In this document: positions 3,506 through 37,678 of the stretch, in pieces | Layout: each line of letters begins with the position of its first letter | Position numbering within the stretch: position 1 is the first letter of the stretch | DNA from: Halorubrum salinarum | GTDB lineage: Archaea; Halobacteriota; Halobacteria; Halobacteriales; Haloferacaceae | Assembly (NCBI RefSeq): GCF_013267195.1 | Contig: NZ_CP053941.1 | Location: 2,356,001 to 2,420,000, forward strand | Length of the DNA: 64,000 bases | Direction: 5' to 3' | Position numbers and translations under genes: made by a program | The notes under the pieces: generated by a model | What the model saw: only the letters and a program-made list of their open reading frames with translations | What the model was told of the DNA's origin: nothing | Databases searched by the model: none

Positions 3506-3548
3506 ACCGGCCGTTCGACCGGCGGGAGGATAATTCTCGGTGGTCGGC

Positions 3549-3778
3549 GCGTGCCTCCGAGCGCCTTGTAGGCGCGAGGAGCACGCGCGAGGGAGTCGCG
3601 AACGAAGTGAGCGACGAGGCTGGGGAGGTGCGAGGTGCGGTGCCGTGCGGGGCGGGACTCGAAGGGGCAGTCGCGAGCCGCACTGAGGCGACGTAAGCAC
3701 CACAGCGAGTGAGCGGAGTGAACGAGCGAGGGGCGCAGCGAGCGTCAGCGCGGCTCGCGGCTGGGGCTTTGGAGGTGG
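3549..3778 (+). repeat. Folded dispersed non-coding element, copy A
   Basis: This is one of three full copies of a non-coding element, here filling the gap of about 350 bp between two minus-strand SDR genes. Reading 5' to 3': hairpin H1 at 3549-3586 (GCGTG, bulged C, CTCC, GA, GCGCC, loop, GGCGC, GA, GGAG, CACGC); hairpin H2 at 3595-3615 (GTCGC-GA-AC-GAA-GT-GA-GCGAC); the cores CGACGAGGCTGGGGAGG and GGGCGGGACTCGAAGGGGC; then stem H3 pairing 3670-3681 with 3750-3761. H3 encloses mini-hairpin H4 at 3709-3723 (GT-GA-GC-GGA-GT-GA-AC). The tail is GGGGCTTTGGAGGT. I see no credible protein in it. Whether it acts as RNA or as DNA is unknown. Confidence 0.85.
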
Positions 3779-3857
3779 TTGTCACTGCCCCGTTATCGAT
3801 TATTCACCAGCGAGCGGCTGGGCCCTTCGCGACCGCCAATCCGGACACAATCCACGC

Positions 3858-19073: not shown

Positions 19074-19327
19074 GCGGCGCGCCTGCGAGCGGCCGCCCCC
19101 GGCGGCCGCGAGCCAGCCCGCGAGGGAGTCGGGCGGCCGGAGCGAAGCGGAGGCCGGCCGACGAGGCTGGGGAGGCGTGAGGTGCTGTGCGGGCGGGACT
19201 CGAAGGGGCGGCCGTGAGGCGTGCGCAGGTGACGCAAGGACCGCAACGAGGAAGCGAACGAAGTGAGCGACCGAGTGAGGACCGCAGCGAGCGTGCGCAC
19301 GCCTCACGGCCGGGGCTTCGGAGGTGT
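19074..19327 (+). repeat. Folded dispersed non-coding element, copy B
   Basis: This second full copy lies between the convergent stops of the thiolase and thiL genes. H1 has a 9-bp GC helix (GCGGCCGCC with GGCGGCCGC) next to the conserved tandem GA mismatch. H2 (19128-19162) ends in GC-GAA-GC closed by GGA on both sides. The cores CGACGAGGCTGGGGAGG and GGGCGGGACTCGAAGGGGC are intact. Stem H3 is 18 perfect base pairs (19210-19227 with 19294-19311), and mini-hairpin H4 (19254-19268) is GC-GA-AC-GAA-GT-GA-GC. The tail is GGGGCTTCGGAGGT. I see no protein in it and no flanking target duplication. Confidence 0.87.
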
Positions 19328-26902: not shown

Positions 26903-27146
26903 ACCGCCGAAGCCCCGGTCGCGAGGCGGGCGCACGCTCGGTGCGCTCCTCGCTTGCTCACTCCGTTCGCTCGCTGCGGTGCTTCCGTCGCCTGCGCCCG
27001 CCTCGCGACCGCCCCTTCGAGTCCCGCCCCACACAGCCCCGCACCTCACGCCTCCCCAGCCTCGTCGGCGGTTCTCCGCTTCGCTCCGAACCACCGACTC
27101 CCTCGCGCGTGCGACTCGCGCCCTGCGGGCGCTCGTCGGCACGCGC
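26903..27146 (-). repeat. Folded dispersed non-coding element, copy C
   Basis: This third full copy is on the minus strand between the convergent stops of the propeller and aminopeptidase genes. Read 5' to 3' on the minus strand: H1 is GCGTG, bulged C, CGAC, GA, GCGCCC, loop, GGGCGC, GA, GTCG, CACGC. H2 is GTCGG, GGTTC, GGA-GC-GAA-GC-GGA, GAACC, CCGAC. The two cores are identical to copy B. Stem H3 is 18 perfect base pairs (26917-26934 with 26993-27010), and H4 (26956-26970) is GC-GA-AC-GGA-GT-GA-GC. TTATAAAT lies just 5' of H1 (about 27159-27166) and could be a promoter. Confidence 0.87.
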
Positions 27147-27198
27147 CACCGCCTCGGTCATTTATAACCAACTAGTTAGATTCCCGCCTGAGGCCGTC

Positions 27199-37558: not shown

Positions 37559-37678
37559 GACCCCGCGACGGAGGCGGTCGACGGCCTCTTTTGAGACCCC
37601 GCGACGGAGGCGGTCGACGGCCTCTTTTGAGACCCCGCGACGGAGGCGGTCGACGGCCTCTTTTGAGACCCCGCGACG
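37535..37678 (+). repeat. Four perfect 36-bp tandem repeats at the end of mer
   Basis: Four identical head-to-tail 36-bp units begin inside mer. Each unit holds the last codons (E-A-V-D-G-L-F) and the stop TGA, and each forms GAGGC-N8-GCCTC followed by TTTT, i.e. a hairpin plus T-run like a transcription terminator. The copies 2-4 are outside the gene. They are followed by 160 bases without a gene before the transducer. Confidence 0.95.

Follow-up and report, generated by a model that had tools for sequence, protein, structure and literature searches.

The ERIC, BOX and REP sequences of bacteria occur as tens of palindromic intergenic copies and have no transposase of their own. The family described here is like them in each of these respects, but it differs in a fold that is made of several helices, is specific to a single strand and has tens of compensated pairs, and in extending over a whole archaeal class. 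The MITEs of haloarchaea and of the IS6 family are also short, non-coding and dispersed; in three other genera (g14, g18 and g20) the H3 unit is bounded by TIRs, with an 8 bp duplication at one copy, whereas the Halorubrum form shows neither a TIR nor recent copies nor a matched transposase, and a DDE MITE has no need of the covariation and strand specificity of its inner fold. With the IS605-associated PATEs the Halorubrum form shares the absence of a TIR, hairpins near the termini and short tail units of ∼52–57 bp (PMC3119063); it differs from them in having no Y1 transposase with matching ends, in being abundant in genomes that lack Y1 and in a far longer structured body. Small hairpin modules are inserted into the hairpins of the family, a likeness to the SMR elements of Haloquadratum, of which SMR-A elements target PATE palindromes (PMC3119063). 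On F-type plasmids a stem-loop formed in the single strand ahead of ssb serves as a promoter (PMC9849209). By kind, the present family is a mobile-derived dispersed repeat; unusual in it are the strand-specific covarying fold, the class-wide spread and an association with an RPA gene on plasmids.

Copies and distribution of the family

The window, i.e. the whole 64 000-nucleotide stretch of DNA that was analysed (G000:C1:2356001-2420000), lies on the main chromosome (C1) of Halorubrum salinarum, the 3.34 Mb genome of which consists of three contigs (C1, C2 and C3). The first-pass annotation had described three elements in the window, built in the common order H1, H2, conserved cores and H3, and all three were recovered at their places and in this order (Table 1). 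The GGGCGGGACTCGAAGGGG core gave three exact matches in the window, and four with up to three mismatches against 0.43 expected; core2 (GACGAGGCTGGGGAGG) likewise gave three exact matches, and, also with mismatches allowed, shuffled sequence had fewer occurrences of the cores than the window. As a count of the family, three was too low. The core search of the whole genome returned ∼64 core-bearing copies (about 60–70) on both strands, and a covariance model (R1) made from 45 full copies gave 77 matches, 51 of them full length at >130 bits. Although C2 and C3 account for ∼12% of the genome, only one of the 77 is located outside the main chromosome. One full copy (L401, G000:C1:1606566-1606822) lies a short way downstream of the RNase P RNA gene (1606880-1607242) and shares its strand. 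At 37564–37648 of the window a separate motif, CGCGACGGAGGCG, occurs three times at an exact spacing of 36 bp, probably as a short tandem repeat within coding sequence.

Table 1. Positions in the window of the three folded elements and of their parts.
Feature	Position	Strand	Basis
Copy A, whole folded element	3546..3772	+	R1 match G000:C1:2359546-2359772
Core2 of copy A	3613..3628	+	Core search
H3 of copy A	3660..3771	+	Core search, alignment
Degenerate second tail unit downstream of copy A	3812..3829	+	57 bp spacing
Copy B (the element under study), whole folded element	19076..19321	+	R1 match G000:C1:2375076-2375321
H1 of copy B, with an outer helix, a tandem G.A internal loop (CGAG/CGAG) and a GC-rich inner helix	19076..19121	+	Helix 1: compensatory change in 10/17 pairs
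Core1 GCGAGGGA of copy B	19120..19127	+	Exact in 176/191 copies
H2 hairpin of copy B	19128..19162	+	Outer pairs covary with start of core2
Core2 GACGAGGCTGGGGAGG of copy B	19160..19175	+	GAGGYTGGGGAGG exact in 187/191 copies
Core3 GGGCGGGACTCGAAGGGGC of copy B	19191..19209	+	Window core search
H3 long hairpin of copy B	19201..19320	+	Base CGAAG (19201-19205)/CTTCG (19316-19320); helices 4-8; haloarchaea-wide unit
Copy C, whole folded element	26907..27147	-	Best R1 match in own genome, 232 bits
H3 of copy C	26908..27019	-	Core search, alignment
Core2 of copy C	27051..27066	-	Core search
Left-flank TTATAAA motif of copy C, with the usual spacing to H1	27161..27167	-	TTTATAA-like left motif in 71/191 copies

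The wider homologues that were to be collected with a covariance model proved plentiful: R1 found the element in all 52 genomes of the genus, with at least 40 matches in most of them, and in 22 of the 28 genera of the family. The H3 half alone (∼122 nt; model R2) was found in 333 of 391 genomes and in 76 of the 86 genera of the class that were sampled, often as a stand-alone unit or in head-to-head pairs; the best-conserved pieces in this survey were GGGYGGGACTSAAAGGGGC, ACGNAAGCACCGCAG, GAGGAGCGCAGCGAG and GGGGCTTTS. Rfam searches identified only a tRNA in the window and gave no relevant match to the family even at E ≤ 1, in agreement with the earlier statement that it has no known name. Two exact patterns gave no match in 2.9 million viral contigs, no match to the element was present in the phage records searched, and a search of the open literature for its motifs gave only unrelated primer-like sequences among the matches listed. 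The element belongs to an old, dispersed, multi-copy, non-coding repeat family of haloarchaea that is mobile-derived, having spread by transposition at least in part, has no transposase of its own and is apparently without a name, both in Rfam and in the open literature searched.

In all three window copies the 3′ end faces the 3′ end of a gene, as had been noted earlier; the rule did not extend to the whole genome, where ∼40 of 64 copies (automatic calls give 39) have an opposed downstream gene. Copies are antisense to both neighbouring genes in 21 cases, sense to both in 16 and between convergent genes in 17, and are depleted between divergent genes (six of ∼60). Neither a consistent orientation to the neighbouring genes nor a consistent neighbour of the chromosomal copies was found genome-wide. 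A cis-acting element of the neighbouring genes, for example a transcription terminator or a 3′-UTR element, would suit the intergenic position, the depletion between divergent genes and the strong hairpins; the lack of any orientation consistent with transcription argues against a cis-acting mRNA element, and, as the structure is also much more elaborate than a terminator, this explanation is very improbable.

Covariation and strand of the fold

The 45 full copies were aligned (alignment A1) and compared with shuffled and slid alignments as controls. Standard pairs occupy 93% of the pair cells, double-sided (compensatory) changes occur at 46 of 65 pairs and the covariation score is 0.373, compared with 0.135 for the shuffled and 0.03–0.072 for the slid alignments. 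Mismatches in well-paired columns are distributed unequally, with 64 G.T against 14 A.C, and the strand named in the first-pass annotation is therefore the folding strand. The element has a conserved single-strand structure, with compensatory changes above both controls and a strand asymmetry. These figures bear out the proposal that a fold rather than a code has been selected, or else reflect concerted evolution. The individual exchanges on which that proposal had been based were present as quoted, namely three paired differences in H3 between copies B and C, each of them compensated, inner H1 pairs CTCC/GGAG in copy A and CGAC/GTCG in copy C, and inner H2 pairs AC/GT in copy A and GC/GC in copies B and C.

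H1 contains a symmetric CGAG/CGAG internal loop, and in H2 the outer pairs and the beginning of core2 vary together (GTCG/CGAC, GCGG/CCGC or GCC/GGC in different copies). A newly recognized helix at the base of H3 pairs CRAAG, within core3, with CTTYG at the 3′ end; most copies show an A-T/G-C exchange within it as a matched change, and other genera close it with G-C rather than C-G, as in GAAAG/CTTTC. Inside H3, short (2 bp) helices alternate with conserved purine internal loops. In four copies (L014, L049, L277 and L295) this interior is present as its reverse complement within a retained outer stem. Small twin-hairpin modules are found within H1, H2 or H3 of L010, L016, L048, L259, L278, L283, L293, L295, L297 and L300 (for example TTCACGAGAGC..GCTCTCGTGAGCCAATCAGAACGC..GCGTTCTGATG and GGGACC..GGTCCCTCTGGCAGCCGGCG..CGCCGGCGAC), and these are possibly SMR-like mobile elements that target palindromes.

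A conserved single strand may be RNA or DNA. A structured non-coding RNA family, in which the element strand would be transcribed at many dispersed loci and would act in trans, e.g. by binding an RNA- or ssDNA-binding protein, is the main rival to the DNA reading favoured below, but on balance unlikely. It would explain the strand-specific covariation with its preference for G-U over A-C as well as the conservation of purine internal loops, CGAG/CGAG among them, and the G-U level of the element (2.7%) is close to that of Halorubrum RNase P (2.9%), a calibration that made the G-U fraction uninformative as a discriminator between RNA and DNA. The folding strand was the more stable one in 46 of 46 copies, but shuffled sequence has an equal strand bias, and folding energy by strand was set aside as mostly a matter of base composition. 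No promoter was found that would fit a complete 5′ arm: the motif TTTATAA stands at −21/−20 from H1 and is kept in 71 of 191 copies, and a start at the usual archaeal spacing from it would fall inside the H1 arm, so that transcription from this motif was judged unlikely. The H1 tips are three-base loops in 150 of 178 copies and GNRA loops in none, which is more typical of DNA hairpins; an RNA reading also has to account for the lack of an Rfam match and for dozens of divergent copies, which are unusual for an sRNA gene.

Termini, mobility and exchange between copies

In g14, g18 and g20 H3 was found inside miniature elements bounded by IS6-like TIRs of the GGTACTGTTTAG type. One genome (G122) contains four near-identical copies at unrelated sites, each within a 378 bp element with ∼49 bp inverted ends (GGTACTGTTTAGATTAGC...) and two H3 units head to head; two of the four have hybrid ends. 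When their flanks were read by eye, L355 showed a perfect 8 bp target duplication (TCGAACCG), L353 and L354 agreed at six of eight positions and L357 had none. A related GGTACTGTCTAGTTAAG TIR surrounds a 745 bp sequence with an IS6 transposase ORF at L362 (NF033587, 198 bits), and this similarity of the TIRs to those of an IS6 transposase gene makes H3 a cargo of IS6-type MITEs in the three genera. In G122, a 64 bp piece (L384, G122:C7:1459888-1459951) consists of little beyond two IS6-type TIR ends and represents a core-deleted MITE.

No TIR was seen in the Halorubrum form, and a TIR search of plasmids gave no match. Its outer parts are often a TTTATAA motif ∼20 nt before H1, found again ∼42 nt after the end of H3, and a 51–57 bp tail unit starting with GGGGCTTTS that can be tandem; L285 has five such units after H3, and L093 and L112 also have tandem units. 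The lack of a TIR, the near-terminal palindromes and a length too short for a transposase fit the traits of PATEs. The first pass had suggested an HUH-type partner, which was not borne out: the ends of the element were absent from the 14 Y1 loci examined, and Y1 transposase is missing from ten of 51 genomes of the genus, of which eight carry at least 40 copies. Derivation of the family from a PATE or IS200–IS605 element by shared ends was not supported by these results.

Pairs of copies within the genome are at best 87% identical, with a median of 76%, so no recent transposition has occurred in this genome. Site B is filled in at least 12 species and site C in more than 20. Element-free alleles (L258, L290, L299 and L301) look like deletions with remnants, and for this reason the target duplication of the Halorubrum insertion is not definable. 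Among 191 copies core2 is kept in 187, whereas TTTATAA is kept on the left in 71 and on the right in 70 and the tail has decayed too; where the ends are fully decayed the base of H3 is still 96.6% paired. In an orthology test the nearest relative was at the same site in seven of 11 cases for site B and five of 21 for site C, and orthologous copies are often closer to paralogues, which points to extensive exchange between copies. The copies in Halorubrum thus appear, from these comparisons, to be homogenized between sites; conservation may operate at the level of the family in addition to that of the single copy, and our initial reading, separate selection on every copy, was dropped.

Since orthologues are often closer to paralogues, gene conversion could keep the fold without selection on each copy. 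A purely selfish or passive MITE-like repeat has to be weighed, in which compensation would arise from gene conversion and quasi-palindrome template switching rather than from a selected function. The IS6-type TIR vehicles, the nested hairpin inserts, the inverted H3 interiors, the wholesale replacement of helices between orthologues and the deletions that leave remnants all speak for it. Template switching, however, perfects palindromes and would remove the purine loops of H3, yet these mismatched loops and the unpaired cores are kept. The G.T/A.C asymmetry shows selection on a single strand, the ends have decayed around a retained body, and H3 has remained conserved in widely differing vehicles as well as at the plasmid rfa locus. 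A passive repeat is accordingly a quite unlikely account of the family.

Plasmid loci and the folded strand

A search of plasmids with H3 gave 27 haloarchaeal records. At six of the seven plasmid loci inspected, H3 lies ∼460–560 bp upstream of, and divergent from, a gene for a ∼290-residue product with an Ssb/RPA-like OB fold (PF21473 above the cutoff for P0001). Genes rfa5 and rfa6 have been described for Halobacterium minichromosomes, and the plasmid gene appears to be of this type (PMC5924565). When loci were instead chosen by the protein, H3 was found at equal distance and orientation in 11 of 24 Halorubrum plasmid loci, including that on C3 of the present genome, and at an equal place and orientation in three of seven PLSDB loci. 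On plasmid pHME132 of Haloferax mediterranei (L404) an H3 match stands upstream of the gene. The other 13 Halorubrum ssb loci gave no H3 match; L403 and L407 are ssb loci without H3, and at L402 and L405 H3 is apparently degraded. The ∼480 bp between the rfa-like gene and H3 are strongly conserved non-coding sequence. This stretch contains several hairpins, occurs in several haloarchaeal families including on Halobacterium pNRC100 (loci L316–L319, L321, L322 and L402–L408) and is kept even where H3 is absent.

A stem-loop upstream of an ssb-like gene on plasmids is a trait of Frpo. As in Frpo of F and ColIb-P9 (PMC9849209), the stem-loop is non-coding, lies upstream of a plasmid gene for an ssDNA-binding protein and has the template strand as its folding strand. 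It is unlike Frpo in its distance of 440–560 bp from the gene, in that no promoter boxes were identified and in being archaeal, and a promoter function would be assigned by analogy; the chromosomal copies of the family, moreover, are not linked to genes for ssDNA-binding proteins.

We modestly favour, at somewhat less than even chances, the reading that the element acts as a folded single strand of DNA. The fold would act when the locus is single-stranded, i.e. during replication, repair or plasmid transfer, and the folded strand would offer a protein a platform of hairpins. The arrangement on plasmids, with the folding strand as template at that distance from the gene, recalls the single-stranded Frpo promoters of bacterial conjugative plasmids; the chromosomal copies would be dispersed descendants of a plasmid module, kept similar by selection and/or by gene conversion between copies. 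The three-base H1 loops without GNRA, the lack of a promoter fitting the full 5′ arm and the link to RPA argue, the loops indirectly, for DNA, together with the covariation, the G.T/A.C asymmetry, the class-wide H3, the dispersal, the retention of the body while the ends decay and the absence of a consistent gene orientation. Against it stand the ssb loci without H3, the lack of a consistent chromosomal neighbour, the closeness of orthologous copies to paralogues, by which gene conversion could suffice to maintain the fold, a G-U fraction equal to that of a real Halorubrum RNA and the genomes that are rich in copies but have no plasmid RPA gene: about half of the genomes of the genus lack this gene (only weak generic matches were obtained), yet have many copies. 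A fuller scenario, drawn partly from the Frpo analogy, is possible but rather doubtful: H3 would be a hitherto undescribed, class-wide ssDNA control module that gained H1 and H2 in Halorubrum and in several relatives, that works in the manner of Frpo next to RPA genes on plasmids and that has spread to chromosomes, where tens of copies would retain the fold to serve the host or plasmid transfer.

Beyond the first-pass annotation, the occurrence of the H3 half in IS6-TIR MITEs of other genera and of H3 adjoining a plasmid RPA-like gene are new. The family is among the most abundant structured non-coding sequences of these genomes, and it forms a natural test case for separating the covariation of RNA from that of ssDNA. 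The RPA-like gene on plasmids provides a concrete and testable entry point. A fold that is 93% paired and heavily compensated across an archaeal class implies that some process repeatedly needs this single strand to be folded.
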